Assembly (NCBI GenBank): GCA_002796325.1
Contig: PCXA01000008.1
Span: 1 to 54,478 of the forward strand
DNA length: 54,478 bases
Direction of reading: 5' to 3'
Source: Deltaproteobacteria bacterium CG11_big_fil_rev_8_21_14_0_20_47_16
GTDB taxonomy: Bacteria > UBA10199 > GCA-002796325 > 1-14-0-20-47-16
Shown: piece after piece, positions 25,901-48,282 of the stretch
How positions within the stretch are numbered: position 1 is the stretch's first letter
Layout of the letters: each line of letters starts with the position of its first letter
Position numbers and translations under genes: made by a program
The notes under the pieces: generated by a model
Databases searched by the model: none
What the model saw: only the letters and a program-made list of their open reading frames with translations
Told to the model about the DNA's origin: nothing

Positions 25901-28900
25901 ATGGAAAAGTTAATTAAAACCCCAGCAGCTCAGTACCGTGTTGTACGTCCTTTGGGTGAAGGGGGTATGGGTCAGGTTTTGCTCGTTCAAGCCCCCCACC
26001 AAAAGGACCCCGTTGCACTTAAATTTCTGCAAGCACAACATATCTCAGAAGTCCGTATCGAAGGATTCAAGCGGGAATTCGCACTTCTATCCGAGCTACA
26101 TCACCCCCACCTACCTCACGTCTACGACTTCGGTTATGCAACTTCACACAACCAATACTTCTTCACAACTGAGTTTGTTGAAGGGCAAGAACTCTATCGC
26201 GCGCTACGCCAAGCGCCATTTGAAGAAATTGAAACTGTTCTTTTGCAAGTCTTGTCCGCCCTCGACTTTCTTCATTCGATTAACTTGGTCCACTTTGACG
26301 TAAAGGGTGAAAATGTTTTGGTTGCACGTGATTCCAATAGCAAGTGGCAAGCCAAACTTGTGGACTTCGGTGTCACAAGCCCAGCCAACCGTGAATTAAC
26401 CGAAGTTGCCGGCACACTTCATTACATTGCGCCCGAACTCCTCCTTCCAGACCCAATCTCAGATGGACGTTGCGATCTATATTCATTTGGCGTCATGGCC
26501 TATTATTTATTGAGTGGCCAGTTTCCCTACACATTACGATCATTCGATGATGTCTGGGAATGGCATCGCAATCACCCTCACCTTGACTTGGAACCACTGA
26601 AGCTCCACGGCGTCCCAGATTACTTCTGCCAAATGATTGAACGGCTCATGAAGCCCAATCCCAGCGAACGTTTTTCATCTGCAGCAGTTGTCATGAATTT
26701 TCTAGCACTCCATTCAGGCCGCTCTCAAGCTGAAATGCCAACGGTTAAACGTGCACAGATCGAAGAAGGACCATTTGTGGGACGTGCAGGCCTCATGACC
26801 ACAATCAAAAATGCACTCCATGCAAGCACAAAGCGTCGTTCAAAAAAGAGACATACTCAAGAAAACACACCTCATACGTTCCTACTATCTGGTCGCGATG
26901 GCATGGGGAAAACACGCTTCTTAAAGGAGCTGAAATTTGTCGCACAACTTGTCGACTACTCAGTACGCTTAGTGGATCTTCAAGAATGTGGCGAATCAAT
27001 GGAGCGATTTAAAATTGGATTGGGCATTATTGATGGCAATCTGCCAAATGATAATATTCAGAAAGAGCTGATCGAAGATTCCAAGAAGCAACCTCTATGT
27101 ATCGCGTTTGACAACCTCAATGATGCTGCACCCATAGTGAAACGATTTATCTTCACGCTGATTGGTACACTTTACAACGCCACCCTCATTGAAGATGCGC
27201 CACCGCTAGTCGTCGTTGCAACTACATCTGATGAAAGCGTTCAATCCATTTTGGGTGCAATCACTGTTTCCATGGCGCCCTTGAAATATGAGGAAGTGGA
27301 ATCTTACTTACAACAACTTATTGGATCTCCTGAAGACTTTGAAAGCTTTTTACAATCGGTTTGGAAATTTTCAGGTGGCATCCCTCTTCTGATGGCGGAA
27401 GCCGCACGTCAATACCATCAACAGGGATCACTCCCAGAATCTATTGAAGAACTTTACTCACAGCATTTGGAAACGCTCAATGCAAATGCCAAGCGCATTT
27501 TGCACTGTTTGGCCTTTGCAGGCGTCCCACTTCCGCATGCCATACTGGAAATTGTGAGTGGTGTTCCCCTTGACAAAGAAATTCAATCAATATTGCAGGC
27601 GGGCCTTGTGCAATACAATGAAGGGAGAGGCGATTACTCTTTGGCAACAGGTGCATTATCGTCGGTACTGTCACAGCAACTCTCAGATACCGAACGCAGT
27701 GAACTTGCCGACCCCTTGTTAGTTTGGATCGAAGGCACACCAGGCTGCACTTCGGTTGACGCTGCCCGCTATGCGCCCTATAGTCGAGACCTCATTCGTA
27801 GCAGTCGAATTTTGGAACAGGCAATCGAACTTTCAGAACGTTCCGGAAAAGCCCAACAAGCCCTACAATTCCTAAAGGAACTGGCAAACTTACGCCATAA
27901 ACTCAATATGACTGGCGAAATAATCGCAATCAATCGGCGTATCGCCATTCATTTACTGTATTTGGGTCAAATCGATGATAGCGAACAAGTCGTACGTAAA
28001 ACCATGACGCTCACTCAATCACCCCAAGTTGAAGATTTAAAACTACTTGGCCTTCTATCACGCATGCGGCGGAAACCTGATGAGGCAGGAAAGCTTTACG
28101 ATCAGGCACTGTCACTTCTGCCAGTAGATCCAAACGACCCAACATATCTCTTTTTACAAAATGAGCGTGCATTAGCATGGTTAGAAGAAGGCAATGTGGC
28201 TAAGGCAATTCCAATGCTTATGCAGTCGCATCGAGATGCCAAAAAGCTACCATTTGATAAAAGACGTCGTGTAACCAACAACAACCTGGGTGCAGCGCTT
28301 GCACGATCAGGCCAACTTAAGGAAGCGATTCTCTTTTATAAGGACAAACTGGACCTCTTTCAGCACGACTTACGCCTACAGGGGTCTATCAGTAGCCAAC
28401 TCGCCACAGTCCAACTCAGAGCAGGACTCCTGGATGATGCTATTGATAGTTTTGAATTGGCCTGGAAAATTGCCAATCAAACAGGCGACTTGCACAATGG
28501 TAAAATCATAATCGAAAACATTATTTCCCTATTACAAAAGAAGACCTCGTACACTAAGGCCCTTCAATATGCCAAAAAGAGCCTAGAGCTCAAGTCGGTT
28601 GGCAGCTCGCCTCAAGATATGGGTCGATCTCTAATGACACTCGCCACACTCTATTTAAATCTTGGGGTCTCAGATCTTGCAGGACGCTACCTTATTCAAG
28701 CCATGCGCATTGTAAGGCGCTGCCGTGATTATCAACTGTTGGGTTGGATTCATATGAACTATGGCTATCTCTATAAAGATTTAGGCCGTCTAATGGAATC
28801 CATCAATGCCTTTGAGGAAACTATTTTTATTGCTGAAGAGCACAAGGATGAAGAGTTATTGCGTTGGGGTCAATATGGCGCTGCAGATGTCTTAGTTGAT

Positions 28901-29665
28901 CACGGTGAACTTGAAGAAGCAAAGCCATATATAACAACACTTTCCAAAACCATCGACTCTGTTCAAGATCCAGAATTCAAAGCACGTTTTGAGCTTCTTC
29001 AAAATCGTATTCAGGTTCTTAAAACACCAAAGCCTGGTCCAGAGCTTGCCCAAAATATTTCAACACTCATTGATGAGTGCCGCCAAAACAACTGGCTCGA
29101 GCTGGAATGGGAAGCAGAATATCTATTGGGTACTCTGTATCAGAAGCGCGATGAATACGACCATGTCCGCATCCACATGTCAAAGGCTGCAGAAATCATT
29201 CAAAGCATCGCAGATGGCCTCAGTGAAGAGTATCGAGGTGGGTTCCTGAAACATCGTATTCGCGCGCGCGTATTCTCTGAATTAAATGCTGCTGAAAATA
29301 ATGAGGCCTACGTCACGGAAGCTACCAGTATCAGTAATGAATCTATGAATACACCACAACCACCTGTGGATGAAGAATTCGCGCAAATGAAAACATCTAT
29401 TTTCTCACCAGACCCTGCCGCATCATTAAAAACACAAGCTTCTGTTCCAGCAATCATCACAAACGACAAGGTGATACAGTTTAGCCCCAAAAAGCCACTC
29501 ATTGAGTACGAAAGAGAAGTTATTGAAGCAACGCTGGCATATTACCACAATGATCTTGATGCAACAGCACAAGCTCTTGGAATCACATCGGAATCACTCC
29601 AGTGGAAACTGGAGCAGTTGGGCATTTCCTGCGAAAATGCAGCAAACGAACAAAGACCATCTTAG
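25901..29665 (+). CDS. Ser/Thr kinase - STAND-type ATPase - TPR - Fis-type HTH regulator
   Basis: A 1254-residue multidomain regulator. Residues about 12-270 are a Hanks-type kinase with glycine loop LGEGGMGQV, ATP-binding Lys41 (VALK), catalytic loop HFDVKGEN (Asp133, Lys135, Asn138), DFG at 155-157 and APELL. The loop has Phe132 where Arg is usual, so it is a non-RD kinase. Residues about 290-590 are a STAND/AAA-like ATPase with FVGRAGLM, Walker A GRDGMGKT (331-338) and a Walker B-like stretch CIAFDNLND. Residues about 600-1110 hold TPR-like helical repeats. Residues about 1200-1242 resemble a Fis-type DNA-binding helix-turn-helix (IEATLAYYHNDLDATAQALG). No ribosome binding site is seen. 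It is followed after 39 bases by addA, implying coexpression. Signal and DNA targets are unknown. Confidence 0.85.
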   Translation: MEKLIKTPAAQYRVVRPLGEGGMGQVLLVQAPHQKDPVALKFLQAQHISEVRIEGFKREFALLSELHHPHLPHVYDFGYATSHNQYFFTTEFVEGQELYRALRQAPFEEIETVLLQVLSALDFLHSINLVHFDVKGENVLVARDSNSKWQAKLVDFGVTSPANRELTEVAGTLHYIAPELLLPDPISDGRCDLYSFGVMAYYLLSGQFPYTLRSFDDVWEWHRNHPHLDLEPLKLHGVPDYFCQMIERLMKPNPSERFSSAAVVMNFLALHSGRSQAEMPTVKRAQIEEGPFVGRAGLMTTIKNALHASTKRRSKKRHTQENTPHTFLLSGRDGMGKTRFLKELKFVAQLVDYSVRLVDLQECGESMERFKIGLGIIDGNLPNDNIQKELIEDSKKQPLCIAFDNLNDAAPIVKRFIFTLIGTLYNATLIEDAPPLVVVATTSDESVQSILGAITVSMAPLKYEEVESYLQQLIGSPEDFESFLQSVWKFSGGIPLLMAEAARQYHQQGSLPESIEELYSQHLETLNANAKRILHCLAFAGVPLPHAILEIVSGVPLDKEIQSILQAGLVQYNEGRGDYSLATGALSSVLSQQLSDTERSELADPLLVWIEGTPGCTSVDAARYAPYSRDLIRSSRILEQAIELSERSGKAQQALQFLKELANLRHKLNMTGEIIAINRRIAIHLLYLGQIDDSEQVVRKTMTLTQSPQVEDLKLLGLLSRMRRKPDEAGKLYDQALSLLPVDPNDPTYLFLQNERALAWLEEGNVAKAIPMLMQSHRDAKKLPFDKRRRVTNNNLGAALARSGQLKEAILFYKDKLDLFQHDLRLQGSISSQLATVQLRAGLLDDAIDSFELAWKIANQTGDLHNGKIIIENIISLLQKKTSYTKALQYAKKSLELKSVGSSPQDMGRSLMTLATLYLNLGVSDLAGRYLIQAMRIVRRCRDYQLLGWIHMNYGYLYKDLGRLMESINAFEETIFIAEEHKDEELLRWGQYGAADVLVDHGELEEAKPYITTLSKTIDSVQDPEFKARFELLQNRIQVLKTPKPGPELAQNISTLIDECRQNNWLELEWEAEYLLGTLYQKRDEYDHVRIHMSKAAEIIQSIADGLSEEYRGGFLKHRIRARVFSELNAAENNEAYVTEATSISNESMNTPQPPVDEEFAQMKTSIFSPDPAASLKTQASVPAIITNDKVIQFSPKKPLIEYEREVIEATLAYYHNDLDATAQALGITSESLQWKLEQLGISCENAANEQRPS

Positions 29666-41428: not shown

Positions 41429-41962
41429 TTAAAACACGCTCTCGTAGTAATCGACCAGATAATCTTTTAGATTGAGCGTAGCAGCCACAGCATGGCCTCC
41501 ACCCCATCCGACTACCTTCCCTACAATAAGCCCAGCAACTGAACCCAAAGCACCGGGCCCAGGTCCACCTAGCACAATACCAACCGACCCGCCAAGGAGC
41601 CCTCCCCCAAGAACAGTCTTGTCTGAAAACTGAGACGGCAACTCTCTATGTCTTTTAGCAGACAGTTGATATCGTCTATACATGGGGGCATTGGGCTTTA
41701 GAATCCCATTATAAATCAAATTTTCAGCAAACTTTGACATAGGTTTAACAGTATAGCAGCCATCATTGTAGCCTGGCTCAGATTCCGGACAGTGATTTTT
41801 TGAGGTTGCAAAATCGTAGAGCTCTTTTATCTGAGAATATTCATTAATATCGATCTTTCCGTCGCTCATCGCTGAATTATAAATATGAATCGCGGTCTGA
41901 TCATCGATAGGATTGCTATGGTCATAAAAATAGCGATAACGATCTATAACTAGTGAATACAT
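41429..41962 (-). CDS. Orphan 177-aa protein with glycine-rich hydrophobic segment, sigma28 promoter
   Basis: I do not recognise this protein. The start at 41962 is set by AAGGAG seven bases upstream; the frame extends further but without such a site. It has no signal peptide. Residues about 1-100 are hydrophilic, with a degenerate EF-hand-like loop (SDGKIDINEY) and two cysteines. Residues about 120-160 form a long Gly-rich hydrophobic stretch (LGGGLLGGSVGIVLGG; GSVAGLIVGKVVGWGGG), typical of glycine-zipper membrane insertion and seen in some toxins and effectors. The C-terminus is polar. A sigma28-type promoter stands upstream, shared in sequence with the 89-aa orphan at 47939-48208. Role unknown. 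Confidence 0.7.
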   Translation of the reverse strand: MYSLVIDRYRYFYDHSNPIDDQTAIHIYNSAMSDGKIDINEYSQIKELYDFATSKNHCPESEPGYNDGCYTVKPMSKFAENLIYNGILKPNAPMYRRYQLSAKRHRELPSQFSDKTVLGGGLLGGSVGIVLGGPGPGALGSVAGLIVGKVVGWGGGHAVAATLNLKDYLVDYYESVF

Positions 41963-41999
41963 ATACTTTCTCCTTAGTTTACCCGTCCCCTTGTTATTA

Positions 42000-42029
42000 T
42001 TATCGGCAGATTTTAGCAAAAGTTGCTTA
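42000..42029 (-). promoter_or_regulatory. Sigma28/FliA-type promoter, copy A
   Basis: On the minus strand GCAACTTT (42019-42026), 11 bases and GCCGATAA (42000-42007). The -10 is a perfect FliA box, the spacing is exact, and the -35 matches five of eight positions of TAAAGTTT. It lies 38 bases before the ATG of the glycine-rich orphan. Bases 42000-42029 match 48253-48282 at 26 of 30 positions. Confidence 0.65.
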
Positions 42030-42072
42030 AAAATTATTGTTATTTATCATATATTTGCATGATATTCAAATA

Positions 42073-42441
42073 CTACCAACCAATGCAGTCGCGGATACGT
42101 TTGATGAGGTCTGGGGCCTTGCAAGGCCTGAGGATGTAGCCATCGCCCTTCACATTGCGCACTTTTTCAGGTGTAACAGCAATGGAATTGGCCGTAATCA
42201 GAAGCACTGGAATTTGGGCAGTCGTTTGATTATTTTTGATGTGTTCACATACCTCATATCCCGTCATGTGCGGCATCCGGATATCCAAGAGCGCCATATC
42301 GGGTAAAAGTTTTGTGACCAACTCCAACGCTTCAGCCCCATCATGGGCCAAGATCACTTCATAGCCTGCTGACGTTAGCTGGTCTGCCGTCATTTCCAAT
42401 CCATCTTGTTCGTCATCAGCTAACACAATGCGCTTGGCCAT
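42073..42441 (-). CDS. Response regulator receiver, partner of the adjacent histidine kinase
   Basis: A 122-residue single receiver. The acidic residues lie in VLADDEQDGLE and the phosphoacceptor Asp in ALLDIRMPHMTG. LLITANSIAV covers the switch position, with Ala-Asn where Thr/Ser-Ala is common. The conserved C-terminal Lys is replaced by Arg (ILRPC instead of xxKPx), which may alter phosphorylation dynamics. It begins three bases after the stop of the kinase gene, so the two form a cognate pair. There is no output domain. Confidence 0.88.
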   Translation of the reverse strand: MAKRIVLADDEQDGLEMTADQLTSAGYEVILAHDGAEALELVTKLLPDMALLDIRMPHMTGYEVCEHIKNNQTTAQIPVLLITANSIAVTPEKVRNVKGDGYILRPCKAPDLIKRIRDCIGW

Positions 42442-42444
42442 TGA

Positions 42445-45054
42445 TCACCCCTTATCTATTGGCAATTTAACATAGAAACTTGTTCCATGCCCATACGACG
42501 ATTCTACGCTTATTTCACCATGATTGGCTTCAACCATCTTTTTGGAAATCGCGAGCCCCAATCCAGATCCAGGGATATTAGGAGAACCCTGACTTCGAAT
42601 CTGGCTAAAACTCTTGAACAATTTGTGTTTGTCTTCCTCTTTAATACCCATACCTTCGTCAGCTACAGTAATACAGATGGCACCGTTTTTTTGTTCAGTC
42701 TTAATTGTTACTTTTCCCTTTTCAGTAAACTTCATGGCATTGCTGAGTAAATTGGTAACGACTTGAGCGATGGCATCTTTGTCATACAACGCACGCGGCA
42801 AATTTTTGCCCAATTCCAATTCCAGATGCAGCCCTTTCTTCTTGGCCACTTCTTGAAACCCATCTGCCAGTTCATCGACCAGCCCATTGACTTCTTGGGG
42901 CTCAATCTGCAACTTCACATTACCTGATTCAATTTTTTGAAAATCCAAGACATTATTAATCAAGCGCCCCAATCGATCCACATTACGAAGCGATGCAGTC
43001 AAATGTTTCTTTTGAGCATCATTAATAGGACCATCCACACCATCCAACACCATTTCAACGCCACCTTGAATCACACTCAATGGCGAACGTAATTCATGGG
43101 ACACCATGGACGTAAATTCTTCGCGTATTGCCACGGCCTCTTCAACTTTTGCTTCCGCTTCTTTACGAATGATCAACTGACCCAACTGATTTCCAATGGA
43201 TGAAAGCGACTGCATAAGATCTCCATCTGGCGGCTGAACTTCATTATTAAAAAATTCAATCACACCAATCACATGCCCCGCCACCAAAATGGGGAACCCA
43301 AATGCCGCGTGTAGGTTTTCTTTTTCAGCATAGGGCGCACGGGGAAAATTAACATCTTTTGTCACGTCTTTAATCCATGCGGGCTCGCCAAAACTCCACA
43401 CACGACCCGGCAACCCTATTTCAGGTGCAAATGTAGTTTGTCGTGTTGCCTTTTCAAACTCAGCAAAGTCTTTAAGTGGTGTATGCCAAAAATCAGTACA
43501 CTCCATCACATTTTTAGCGGCGTTCACACGCCACACAGCTGCCACCTGCCAGCCCAATTGTGTGCACACCAACGCCAAAATTTTATGAATAACTTCGTCC
43601 AAGGATTTGGCGTCTGAAATTACCTTACTAACTGAGTATTGAATCAGCAATCGGCTATTAAAGCGGTCGCGCTGGAGCACCTCTTTACTCAAGGATTCAT
43701 TTGCAATTTGTATTTCCTTAGTACGCTCTTGCACCTTGGCATCCAACTCATCTCTGGATGTGCGCAGTTCCTCTTCGATCCTCTTTTGGTGGGTCATGTC
43801 CATCACGGAACCCACCATACGTAAGGCGTTTCCATTATCGTCGCGGACTACATAGCCGCGTATCAGAATATAATTGTAGTGACCATCCGCCTGCCGAATT
43901 CGAAATTCTTCCGTCCAATATTGCTGGCCGCTATTAATCACCAAATCCAGTGAGGCCAAACAACGTTCTCGATCATCTGGATGCAAATGCTCTGCCCAAT
44001 ACTCATGAACCTTATTGCCTTCACTTGCACAGTCAAACCCCATTGCGGTTGCAAAAACAGCATTTGACCAGGCACAACGTGTTGTTAAATCCCAGTCCCA
44101 AATACCATCGTTCGTGGCCTTCATAATCAACCGCATACGCTCTTCGTTATCTGCCAATTTTTTAGAAACTCCCTCACGCTGCGCGTCGGAAGTATTAATT
44201 GAATGTGCGGTTAGCCAGATAAGAACTGTAAAGACAGCAATATTGGACAAGGCCTGTAAGGCAACTCCCATGGGCGTATCATAGTATCCTTGCTGTTCTC
44301 CCCATAAGCTGACCTCCCCCATAATGAGCGGCAATATGGCTGCAAGAAACAAAAGTCGCCGCGCTATAGTACTACCCGAATAATCGCTCGTTATTTCAAT
44401 CATGATGGGAGAAGTCGGTAATGACAAAAACATAGCGCCTGAAAGTACCAAAAATGACAGGGCCGTGTGTAGAGCAACCGTTGCATATGGTCCAAAACTA
44501 TAGAGCGAGCTAGCACCATAAAAATATCCAGCTGTTGCAAGCAGAGAAAATGTCGCCACAAGCAATGCTGTACCCACATTCAACATGATTAATGATCGAA
44601 AGCGAGTATTGGCCGCAAACAATGAAATACCCATGAGCGTCGACATGACTGCTGTCGTAATGGACATGCGACCATGGGGTGCTACCTGAAAAGATTCAGC
44701 GACGATACTATCATAAAACAACGTATCAATATGAGCGTTCCAGTTCCATATATACTCAGACAAAGAAACTGCACCAATCAACGATACAAACAAACCACAA
44801 AGACGCGCACCCCACTGGACAATCACATTTTGAGACATTTGCAAGCGAATGCCCAAACCTGCTACTATCAAACAAATAGCCGTATTAACTTTCATGGTTG
44901 CAAAACCGGGGAACACCGACTTGAGAACTTCAATATTAAAAATCCAACCAGCCAAGACAGCACAACCCACTAATACTATTAATACACCAGCATAGCGGGC
45001 CCATTTCAAAGCAAGGGCAGCAGACGGCGATAATGGGGTCTCTTGGGGTGTCAT
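42445..45054 (-). CDS. Membrane sensor histidine kinase with PAS and GAF domains
   Basis: An 869-residue hybrid-free sensor kinase. Residues about 18-290 form a membrane sensor of seven or eight helices. A PAS domain follows (about 305-430; KATNDGIWDWDLTTRCAWS and the PAC region), then a coiled coil and a GAF domain (about 475-620). The HisKA box is FTSMVSHELRSPLSVIQGG with the phosphorylated His. The ATPase domain has NLLSNAMKFTEKG, DEGMGIKEED and GSGLGLAISKK. It is transcribed with the receiver gene from a promoter at 45068-45096 and is divergent from cstA. The input signal is unknown; proximity to CstA suggests but does not prove a nutrient link. Confidence 0.9.
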   Translation of the reverse strand: MTPQETPLSPSAALALKWARYAGVLIVLVGCAVLAGWIFNIEVLKSVFPGFATMKVNTAICLIVAGLGIRLQMSQNVIVQWGARLCGLFVSLIGAVSLSEYIWNWNAHIDTLFYDSIVAESFQVAPHGRMSITTAVMSTLMGISLFAANTRFRSLIMLNVGTALLVATFSLLATAGYFYGASSLYSFGPYATVALHTALSFLVLSGAMFLSLPTSPIMIEITSDYSGSTIARRLLFLAAILPLIMGEVSLWGEQQGYYDTPMGVALQALSNIAVFTVLIWLTAHSINTSDAQREGVSKKLADNEERMRLIMKATNDGIWDWDLTTRCAWSNAVFATAMGFDCASEGNKVHEYWAEHLHPDDRERCLASLDLVINSGQQYWTEEFRIRQADGHYNYILIRGYVVRDDNGNALRMVGSVMDMTHQKRIEEELRTSRDELDAKVQERTKEIQIANESLSKEVLQRDRFNSRLLIQYSVSKVISDAKSLDEVIHKILALVCTQLGWQVAAVWRVNAAKNVMECTDFWHTPLKDFAEFEKATRQTTFAPEIGLPGRVWSFGEPAWIKDVTKDVNFPRAPYAEKENLHAAFGFPILVAGHVIGVIEFFNNEVQPPDGDLMQSLSSIGNQLGQLIIRKEAEAKVEEAVAIREEFTSMVSHELRSPLSVIQGGVEMVLDGVDGPINDAQKKHLTASLRNVDRLGRLINNVLDFQKIESGNVKLQIEPQEVNGLVDELADGFQEVAKKKGLHLELELGKNLPRALYDKDAIAQVVTNLLSNAMKFTEKGKVTIKTEQKNGAICITVADEGMGIKEEDKHKLFKSFSQIRSQGSPNIPGSGLGLAISKKMVEANHGEISVESSYGHGTSFYVKLPIDKG

Positions 45055-45067
45055 AATTAACTATATT

Positions 45068-45096
45068 ATTGTAAACCTGTTCCTGATTGACGCCAA
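45068..45096 (-). promoter_or_regulatory. Sigma70 promoter of the histidine kinase/receiver operon
   Basis: Minus strand: TTGGCG (45091-45096), a 17-base spacer and TACAAT (45068-45073), close to the kinase start at 45054. It lies in the divergent region shared with cstA. Confidence 0.5.
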
Positions 45097-45159
45097 ACTG
45101 ATTCTATTTCAACGACTTCCCGCTTGCATTGGGCCTACGAATTTTATTAAACACCGCCT

Positions 45160-46749
45160 ATGAGCGCTGCCCTTATTCTGATTATCACCTTGGTACTATT
45201 TTTGCTGGCGTATCGCTTCTATGGCAGCTTCCTCAACCGCCTGTATGGCATCCATTCTGACATCAAAACCCCCGCTCACACCCAATATGATGGCGTGGAT
45301 TTCGTCCCTGTCAAAAGTTGGGTGGTTTTATTCGGCCATCACTTTGCGTCTATCTGTGGAGCGGGCCCCATCGTGGGACCTGTTCTGGCAGTGGCCTATT
45401 GGGGATGGGCACCATCACTCATTTGGATTGTATTCGGTTCCATTTTATTGGGAGCGGTAGCAGATTATTCCAGCCTTGTGGTTTCCATGCGTTCCGAAGG
45501 CAAATCCATTTCAGACATTGCCCACCCTGAAATTTCCAAACGTGCCAAACTTTTCTTTGCATGGTTTATTTGGTTCACACTCATCTTGGTCATCGCGGTC
45601 TTTGCCATCTTTGGCGCCAAGACACTTGATCAAGAACCCAGCTCCGTACTACCTGCCACTGGTCTTATTCCCGTGGCTATTTTAGTCGGTTATCTTTTGA
45701 AAAAAATATCGGTACTCAATGCCACCATCGTGGGGCTTGGTTTATTGGGAGTGTTGTTGCTACTGGGGCAAAGCATCACCATTCCATTTTCTTCACCCGT
45801 TTGGATCACACTACTTCTTATCTATTGTTTTGCGGCATCAGTAACACCTGTGGATCGTCTACTTCAGCCCCGCGATTATTTGGCCAGCTACTTACTCTTC
45901 TTCACAATCGGCTTGGGCGTGGTTTCAATTCTATTTACCAATCCAGACTTGCTTTCTTCTAGCTACACCACATGGAACCCCAAAGAGACTTGGCCCAACG
46001 CTGGTCCCCTCTTCCCCATGTTGTTTGTCACCATTGCGTGTGGCGCCATTTCAGGATTTCATTCACTTGTTTCAAGTGGCACCACCTGCAAACAGATTGC
46101 CAATGAAGTGCACGCCTGTCGCATCGGTTATGGCGGCATGTTGACTGAAGGGCTGGTAGCCGTCATGGTGTTGATTTGCGTGGCGGCACTTGCACCTTCC
46201 ACACTCACCGACACTTTAAAAACAGGCGGCGGCCCCATTGCGGCATTTGGCCAGGGCTATGGCGATGTGGTGTCCTTTTTAATGGGTGACTACGGCAAAC
46301 CATTTGCGATTCTGGCACTCAATACCTTCATCCTCACCACACTGGATTCTGCCACACGCATTGCACGCTACCTCACCATGGAAATCCTGGGCGTACAAAA
46401 CAAGTATACGGCTACTCTCATTGTGGTTGTGGCCGCAGGACTTTTGGGACTCACAGGCCAATGGTCACGCATCTGGCCAGCCTTTGGGACAGCCAATCAA
46501 CTGATTGCGGGGCTCTCACTGCTTGTGGCATCCGCATGGCTGCTGCGCCGCGAACGCCCCCATTGGTACACCTTCATTCCCGCAATTTTTATGTTGGTTG
46601 TGACGACAAGTGCATTTGTGCTGCAGATCATTCAATCCACCACACAAGACCGCCCCGACTATTTGATTGCCGGCGTGGCAGTCGTGCTGATTATTTTATC
46701 ACTCTCTATTTTTTGGGAAGCCATCCGCAATACGCGTAAGATCAGTTAA
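45160..46749 (+). CDS. cstA: Carbon starvation protein CstA-type transporter
   Basis: An inner-membrane protein of 529 residues with about 14 hydrophobic helices. The start region AYRFYGSFLNRLYGI, then GHHFASICGAGPIVGPVLA and PSLIWIVFGSILLGAVADYSSL, are the strong CstA signatures. FHSLVSSGTTCKQI lies in a later part. The family takes up pyruvate or peptides during carbon starvation. It is shorter than E. coli CstA (about 700), in line with the compact subgroup. No clear ribosome binding site precedes the ATG. It is divergent from a histidine kinase/receiver pair, which may regulate it, and its stop overlaps that of ribD in TTAA. Confidence 0.92.
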   Translation: MSAALILIITLVLFLLAYRFYGSFLNRLYGIHSDIKTPAHTQYDGVDFVPVKSWVVLFGHHFASICGAGPIVGPVLAVAYWGWAPSLIWIVFGSILLGAVADYSSLVVSMRSEGKSISDIAHPEISKRAKLFFAWFIWFTLILVIAVFAIFGAKTLDQEPSSVLPATGLIPVAILVGYLLKKISVLNATIVGLGLLGVLLLLGQSITIPFSSPVWITLLLIYCFAASVTPVDRLLQPRDYLASYLLFFTIGLGVVSILFTNPDLLSSSYTTWNPKETWPNAGPLFPMLFVTIACGAISGFHSLVSSGTTCKQIANEVHACRIGYGGMLTEGLVAVMVLICVAALAPSTLTDTLKTGGGPIAAFGQGYGDVVSFLMGDYGKPFAILALNTFILTTLDSATRIARYLTMEILGVQNKYTATLIVVVAAGLLGLTGQWSRIWPAFGTANQLIAGLSLLVASAWLLRRERPHWYTFIPAIFMLVVTTSAFVLQIIQSTTQDRPDYLIAGVAVVLIILSLSIFWEAIRNTRKIS

Positions 46750-47846
46750 AATTTTTGAGTAGCTACAATAATAACCGCATTATCGATCTGGGTGACCTGG
46801 CGGATATAAAGTGACTTGGCGTTGGCAATGGGAAGATTGGGCATCGCTTGGCTGATACCCATACCGGCATCCCCCAAAAACTTGGGGGCCATACAGAAAA
46901 TCCATTCTTGAATCGCATTCAATCGGGAAAGCGCCCCAATCAATGTAGGGCCCCCTTCTAATAATACAGTCGTCACACCACGACTTCCCAACTCTCGAAG
47001 GGCCTTACGCAGATTTACCTTTCCAGCAGTACCGCCCACATGCAGTGCCACATGGCCACGATGACTCAACCAGTACTGCAGGGTATCTGACACGTCTTGC
47101 GCGGTAAGAATCACCGTTGGACGCGTGCGCTTTGCCTTCAGTATTTTCAGTTTTTGGGGAAGTTTACCTTTGGACGAAATCACAATCGGCATCGGCTGCT
47201 TGGCATTGCGCACACGGGCCGTCAATTGGGGGTCATCTGCAATGGCTGTTTTAGCACCCACCATAATACCATCCACCATCGAACGTAAGTAATGGGTAAA
47301 CTCGCGAACACGCCCTTCGGTGATCCATTTGGATTTGCCACGATGGTCGGCCATTTTGCCATCCATTGTAATGGCCACCTTCGCAAAAAGGTACGGCGTG
47401 CCAGTGCGCATCCAGTGGATGTAACTGCGATTTAAATAGCATGCTTCATCTTCGCATATAGGGCCATCCACTTTAATCTTGGCGCGACGCAACTTGGCCA
47501 AGCCTTTGCCAGCAACTTGCGGATTGGGATCCTTCATGGCATAGACCACACGTTTTACACCAGATTGAATGATGGCTTCGGTGCACGGACCCGTGCGTCC
47601 TTGGTGACAACATGGCTCGAGCGTTACATACAGCGTTGCACCCTTCGCCTTCGCACCTGCTGCCTTCAGCGCCACAATCTCGGCATGATCGGTTCCTGCT
47701 TTGCGATGAAAGCCTTCGGCAATGATATGCCCTTTCTTGACGAGCACTGCCCCCACCATCGGATTTGGCGAGGTTTTGCCCAAGGCCTTTTCCGCCAAGT
47801 GAAGCGCGCGTTGCATAAATTGAATATCTGCCGATTTCAGACTCAT
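46746..47846 (-). CDS. ribD: Bifunctional pyrimidine deaminase/reductase
   Basis: Second and third steps of riboflavin synthesis: deamination of the pyrimidine intermediate and reduction of its ribosyl side chain. The N-terminal deaminase has the zinc site DHAEIVAL and TLYVTLEPCCHQGRTGPC. The C-terminal reductase includes FAKVAITMDGKMA and VLLEGGPTLIGAL. The 366-residue length is typical. It begins 20 bases after the T-run of a terminator, so its own promoter must lie within or beyond that hairpin, or it depends on read-through. It is separated from the other rib genes by cstA and the two-component genes. Confidence 0.95.
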   Translation of the reverse strand: MSLKSADIQFMQRALHLAEKALGKTSPNPMVGAVLVKKGHIIAEGFHRKAGTDHAEIVALKAAGAKAKGATLYVTLEPCCHQGRTGPCTEAIIQSGVKRVVYAMKDPNPQVAGKGLAKLRRAKIKVDGPICEDEACYLNRSYIHWMRTGTPYLFAKVAITMDGKMADHRGKSKWITEGRVREFTHYLRSMVDGIMVGAKTAIADDPQLTARVRNAKQPMPIVISSKGKLPQKLKILKAKRTRPTVILTAQDVSDTLQYWLSHRGHVALHVGGTAGKVNLRKALRELGSRGVTTVLLEGGPTLIGALSRLNAIQEWIFCMAPKFLGDAGMGISQAMPNLPIANAKSLYIRQVTQIDNAVIIVATQKF

Positions 47847-47865
47847 TGTTTGGTGTAATTACGTC

Positions 47866-47909
47866 TAAAAAAACAGAAGGTCAAGGAAGTGCTCACTTCC
47901 TTGACCTTC
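47866..47909 (-). terminator. Intrinsic terminator of the 89-aa orphan gene
   Basis: GAAGGTCAAGGAAGTG (47876-47891) and CACTTCCTTGACCTTC (47894-47909) form a perfect 16-bp inverted repeat with a 2-base gap, in practice a 15-bp stem with a 4-base loop. On the minus strand it is followed by a run of seven T (47867-47873). It lies 29 bases after the stop of the 89-aa gene and directly before ribD. Confidence 0.85.
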
Positions 47910-47938
47910 ATGAGTTCTGCAATTGAAACAATCAGTTT

Positions 47939-48208
47939 CTATTTTGAATGTAAAAAAATCGGGGGAACACCGGCAAAACGTGCAGCAAGATGAGTGAGCC
48001 CACGACCTAGCGGAGCAAAATCCACATGCGGCAACTGCGCCACACGGCTGGCCTGGCATCCACCACCATGTTGTGCATTATATTCATCCTGTATTCTGAA
48101 ACAATACGACCCAGGACTATTCGGTGGACATGGAACTTTATGCTCACAACCACCTAAACCGAATGCTGCGGCAACAGCTGCAGCTCCTGCAAGAATAACG
48201 TTAACCAT
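47939..48208 (-). CDS. Orphan 89-aa cysteine-containing lipoprotein-like protein, sigma28 promoter
   Basis: I do not recognise this protein. The start is well supported by AGGAGAAT before the ATG. The first 21 residues, VNVILAGAAAVAAAFGLGGC, look like a lipoprotein signal with lipobox LGGC, although the N-terminus lacks the usual positive charge. Four cysteines (21, 27, 36, 51) could include a disulphide pair in the mature part. The cassette has its own sigma28-type promoter and strong terminator and is inserted between nrdR and ribD. Composition is otherwise Gly, Pro and His-rich. Envelope location is likely; function unknown. Confidence 0.62.
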   Translation of the reverse strand: MVNVILAGAAAVAAAFGLGGCEHKVPCPPNSPGSYCFRIQDEYNAQHGGGCQASRVAQLPHVDFAPLGRGLTHLAARFAGVPPIFLHSK

Positions 48209-48252
48209 AATAGATTCTCCTCATTAAAGATCATGTAGACGATTCAAACAAT

Positions 48253-48282
48253 TTATCGGCAGGTTACAGAAAAAGTTGCTTA
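48253..48282 (-). promoter_or_regulatory. Sigma28/FliA-type promoter, copy B
   Basis: On the minus strand GCAACTTT (48272-48279), 11 bases and a perfect GCCGATAA (48253-48260), the same boxes as copy A at 42000. It lies 45 bases upstream of the 89-aa gene and within the gap after nrdR. Two independent copies before two unrelated genes make chance unlikely. Confidence 0.68.

Follow-up and report, generated by a model that had tools for sequence, protein, structure and literature searches.

Which sigma factor reads two nearly identical promoter-like sites on the minus strand of a single contig, and what do the genes behind them do? The sites (42000-42026 and 48253-48279) lie in a stretch of 54,478 nucleotides, referred to here as the window, from Deltaproteobacteria bacterium CG11_big_fil_rev_8_21_14_0_20_47_16, class UBA10199 (assembly GCA_002796325.1, contig PCXA01000008.1, positions 1 to 54,478). 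Both window genes are likely to belong to a large regulon whose products are secreted or lie at the cell surface. Its probable driver is a sigma factor of the FliA family whose -35 recognition helix is re-specialised and whose gene lies in a type III secretion system (T3SS) operon of the same genome. Because the sigma gene lies inside the T3SS cluster, the two promoters probably switch on secreted or surface proteins and not swimming genes. From the sequence we infer that this sigma factor binds the sites, that the products are secreted and when they are made.

Two matched promoters and a genome-wide motif

The minus-strand 30-mers TAAGCAACTTTTGCTAAAATCTGCCGATAA (42029 to 42000) and TAAGCAACTTTTTCTGTAACCTGCCGATAA (48282 to 48253) were recomputed to agree at 26 of 30 positions, as claimed in the original prediction. 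The box spacing it gave is also exact at both sites, GCAACTTT-N11-GCCGATAA, with the -35 and -10 boxes at 42019-42026 and 42000-42007 for promoter 1 and at 48272-48279 and 48253-48260 for promoter 2. The ATGs at 41962 and 48208 follow at the predicted distances of 38 and 45 nt, and both are well supported by a Shine-Dalgarno sequence (AAGGAG and GAGGAG, respectively). No similarity was found between the two products, also as predicted.

The pattern GCAACTTTT-N10-GCCGATA was then scanned through the whole genome (G000; 1.95 Mb, 99.75% complete). It occurs in 13 exact copies and in 57 copies with at most one mismatch over its 16 informative bases, whereas base composition predicts about 0.001 and 0.05, respectively, and the reversed pattern yielded no copy. 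At 33 of the 57 sites, a Shine-Dalgarno-supported open reading frame (ORF) of at least 80 amino acids begins no more than 60 nt away, compared with 6.9% for random positions (p = 6e-24). The position weight matrix (PWM) of the sites reads [AC]GCAACTTTTT-N8-T-GCCGATA[AC]; promoter 1 has the top score within the window (47.9 bits), and promoter 2 scores 42.5 bits. These results indicate that the proposed unrecognised regulon is real; it is not small, as had been supposed, comprising at least 57 sites.

The assignment of the sites to the sigma28/FliA type holds in part. The -10 box is exact and a FliA/WhiG-type sigma gene exists in the genome, but the -35 box GCAACTTT differs in 3 of 8 bases from TAAAGTTT, the -35 of the enterobacterial sigma28 promoter TAAAGTTT-n11-GCCGATAA (PMC2859248). 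Two boxes at a fixed distance, which are all that the PWM contains, could also make the operator of a DNA-binding regulator instead of a promoter. This is very improbable, as the motif is non-palindromic and faces the start codon at short distance, its -10 is letter-for-letter that of sigma28 with sigma28 spacing, and it occurs across the same class as the sigma factor.

The sigma factor and its T3SS operon

The check for fliA returned a FliA/WhiG-type sigma gene (C2:95802-96746) that forms part of a non-flagellar T3SS operon. It is the only strongly FliA/WhiG-like sigma in the genome; the two other matches of the family model are weaker and located elsewhere. The NCBIfam model TIGR02479 is its best-matching family of all (E 2.6e-41), at 141.8 bits, under the curated cut-off of 189.6. 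Region 2.4/3.0 is FliA-like in all readable orthologs (R[IV][KR]GA..D.LR..W.PR), and the region 4.2 helix reads KSW[TV][SC]R[LM]H in every one of them. The corresponding helix is ESRVSQ[IL]H in WhiG, in E. coli FliA and in the second, FliA-like copies present in three flagellated class members, while the second copy in genome G044 reads ESRICQIH. An exception is the second copy in G041, KSWASRLH, in a genome without a flagellin match. The combination of an SRVSQ[IL]H helix with a TAAAGTTT-type -35 was thus not found; KSW[TV][SC]R[LM]H and GCAACTTTT were found in its place. The altered region 4.2 helix matches the altered -35, and the retained region 2.4/3.0 matches the unaltered -10.

RNA polymerase with the T3SS-borne sigma would accordingly be predicted to read both window sites and the rest of the 57-site regulon. 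Its kept FliA region 2.4/3.0 would account for the classic -10 GCCGATA[AC], and its own region 4.2 helix for the -35 GCAACTTTT. Scattered effector and surface-protein genes would then be turned on when the secretion machine is deployed, as with HrpL.

The gene order of the operon is SctV, an FHA/SctD-like gene, SctJ, two small ORFs, sigma, an SctI-like gene, an SctK/FliG-like gene, SctL and SctN, followed by SctO, an SctP-like gene, SctQ, a FliN-like gene, SctR, SctS, SctT and translocon-like genes with SycD-type chaperones; the names SctI, SctO, SctS and translocon are given by position and sequence reading, without a family match. SctV (778 > 692), SctN (633 > 605) and SctR (232 > 209) pass their NCBIfam cut-offs, and SctJ, SctL and SctT match under the cut-off or via Pfam. 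The non-flagellar core SctV/SctN/SctR/SctT/SctJ is therefore present, with SctV above its cut-off. The proteins encoded at C2:97255-98307 and C2:101650-103335 are FliG-, FliM- and FliN-like and, by eye, FliO-like, a set more flagellum-like than that of usual injectisomes.

A small ORF at C2:95381-95716 (L031:828-1163) overlaps the gene before sigma, and its product appears by eye to have a disordered N-terminus and a helical C-terminus. It is a candidate anti-sigma factor analogous to FlgM; it has no Pfam match, and among relatives it is too divergent for alignment by eye.

Evidence against a motility regulon

The original prediction tied the regulon to motility control. A conventional FliA regulon, with late flagellar and chemotaxis genes and two unrecognised members, would fit the -10 box, which is the same as the sigma28 consensus, and the best family of the sigma, FliA/WhiG. 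This reading is contradicted by the data, and we regard it as scarcely credible. The genome contains no flagellin (PF00669) at E<=0.1 and no flagellar rod/hook family (PF00460), and its sole FHIPEP protein (FlhA/SctV homologue) scores over the SctV cut-off and under the FlhA cut-off. The sigma gene is in the T3SS operon, the -35 box and the recognition helix differ, and the flagellated class members own a separate FliA-like gene. No motif copy was seen ahead of a flagellar or chemotaxis gene: such Pfam families were absent among the 25 of 53 families listed for 64 downstream proteins, as were such genes among the batches read individually. For two flagellated members (L249, L250), the stretch examined upstream of flagellin contained neither a close canonical nor a close GCAAC site.

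Distribution across the class

The motif was found in all 46 class genomes (1 to 91 copies), compared with 1 of 14 genomes outside the class, and a close homologue of the sigma factor in nearly all 46. FHIPEP is present in 44 of the 46, flagellin in only 4. In all 30 loci examined, homologues of SctI and SctK come after sigma; upstream, wherever the sequence extends and a match is detectable, are SctJ and a conserved ORF. In genome G021, the sigma position reads N, so that this genome says nothing on sigma absence. Several named relatives, including RIFCSPHIGHO2_01_FULL_43_49, were deposited as 'Deltaproteobacteria' metagenome-assembled genomes, and a literature search for T3SS in UBA10199 found no papers.

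Regulon products

The downstream genes are mostly orphans; their products are lipoproteins, further proteins of the Sec-exported type, and proteins whose N-termini resemble type III secretion (T3S) signals. Among the families listed for the 64 downstream proteins, none occurs in more than two. Recognised products include a subtilase, a matrixin/reprolysin-type protein, M14 carboxypeptidases and DUF4832/DUF4874, GGDEF, PilZ, TPR and HEAT proteins. By a hydrophobicity rule, 9 of 39 well-supported products are Sec-like, and several have lipoboxes. Charge-poor, S/T/P/N-rich N-termini are the composition of T3S signals. Compared with proteins of the window and of C2, the non-Sec N-termini of the regulon are charge-poor and S/T/P/N-rich (p 0.001 and 0.003), as are those of the relatives' non-Sec regulon proteins (p 7e-6 and 3e-4); further in, at residues 101-125, the composition of these proteins is ordinary. 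For three of the genome's own regulon genes, homologues from other families are likewise preceded by the motif, which supports the regulon reading.

One regulon gene on C16 (L126:1752-3344, minus strand) encodes an M14 carboxypeptidase domain and weakly matches the N-terminal domain of cytosolic carboxypeptidases. Cytosolic carboxypeptidases of this kind act on tubulin tails.

The T3SS-borne sigma might instead run mainly a surface or life-stage programme of lipoproteins, proteases and adhesins, with T3SS cargo in the minority. Many downstream genes do encode lipoproteins or Sec-exported proteases. The homologues found to be shared across families are either lipoproteins or exported through Sec. 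In Bdellovibrio, FliA governs surface proteins and proteases (PMC3627812). We consider this alternative unlikely, as most downstream products have no Sec-like signal and have T3S-signal-like N-termini, and the sigma gene is fixed in the T3SS operon at every locus examined.

Several observations weigh against a T3SS-borne sigma driving a secreted and surface regulon. Part of the regulon carries Sec or lipoprotein signals and is thus not T3SS cargo, Pfam gave no clear effector signature, and the control of the N-terminal comparison consisted of 56 mostly housekeeping proteins. No dedicated T3SS secretin (SctC) was found, TIGR02516 matching only GspD- and PilQ-type proteins, which makes delivery outside the cell uncertain. 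The T3SS locus itself has no motif, whereas HrpL has the genes of its own T3SS among its targets (PMC3879358). In eleven class genomes the motif count does not exceed six, though most of them carry the same helix. Genome G022 (L278, L324) has 24 copies, 20 on one contig strand, yet no sigma homologue was found in it; its T3SS order is kept only up to SctD within the stretch taken.

Comparison with known systems

HrpL of Pseudomonas syringae controls many effector and non-effector genes, and also T3SS genes, via the hrp-box (PMC3879358). The present system resembles it in having a T3SS-tied sigma and many scattered genes with a common promoter. HrpL is, however, of the extracytoplasmic function (ECF) type, whereas the sigma studied here fits the FliA/WhiG family best and its promoter is unrelated. 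With the FliA (sigma28) flagellar regulon it shares sigma family, spacing, exact -10 and region 2.4/3.0 (PMC2859248), but it differs in the -35 GCAACTTTT, the KSW[TV][SC]R[LM]H helix, the lack of flagellin and rod/hook families and the T3SS-operon location of the gene.

The attack-phase FliA regulon of Bdellovibrio bacteriovorus, with the promoter TTAAG-N16-CCGATA (PMC3627812), is similar in that a FliA-type factor exerts global control that reaches past motility to surface proteins and proteases; Bdellovibrio is flagellated, unlike this organism, and its -35 is near the usual sigma28 kind. Chlamydia trachomatis likewise has a sigma28 in a non-flagellated T3SS bacterium, but chromatin immunoprecipitation sequencing gave two targets, hctB and tsp, with an E. 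coli-like promoter (PMC12282069), compared with tens of targets here, mostly orphans. A non-flagellar core without secretin is also known from the Myxococcales-type T3SS (Abby and Rocha 2012, PMC3459982); the present locus differs in its SctI-like gene, SycD-type chaperone, translocon-like genes and FliA-family sigma, and the text of that study mentions neither FliA nor sigma.

Genes and neighbours of the window promoters

Promoter 1 precedes an orphan gene of 177 amino acids (41429-41962, minus strand; Shine-Dalgarno AAGGAG at 41970-41975). Its product has an EF-hand-like DGKIDINEY near the N-terminus and a glycine-rich hydrophobic stretch near the C-terminus; a Pfam scan gave nothing of weight, and the fold prediction was uninformative (predicted local distance difference test score 36). 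A CheY-like receiver (122 amino acids) and a large histidine kinase, encoded on the same strand just ahead of promoter 1 (42073-45054), possibly regulate the 177-amino-acid orphan or the switch.

Promoter 2 precedes a lipoprotein-like gene of 89 amino acids (47939-48208, minus strand) with a GLGGC lipobox. The C-terminal 34 amino acids of its product (CQASRVAQLP...) recur in a regulon gene on C4 (L135:953-1249), behind the site at 83582-83608, and outside this C-terminus the two are unrelated. As a DNA repeat, the segment had no match among the loci examined. Elsewhere in the window, and unconnected with the promoters, a 1254-amino-acid protein (25901-29665) has, by eye, a serine/threonine kinase domain at its start.

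Implications

If the sigma factor does drive this regulon, a short DNA pattern would list candidate T3SS effectors throughout an uncultured class in which the targets, being orphans, cannot otherwise be recognised. It would also provide a testable case of an injectisome with a kept, re-specialised flagellar sigma, which bears on the descent of injectisomes from flagella. A bolder and less likely possibility is that the injectisome kept the sigma28 logic: the machine would be built, and a T3SS-borne FliA descendant with a retooled -35 helix would then turn on dozens of effector genes, perhaps set free when the FlgM-like anti-sigma candidate (C2:95381-95716) is exported. Such a system would represent a living intermediate between the flagellar and the injectisome mode of control.
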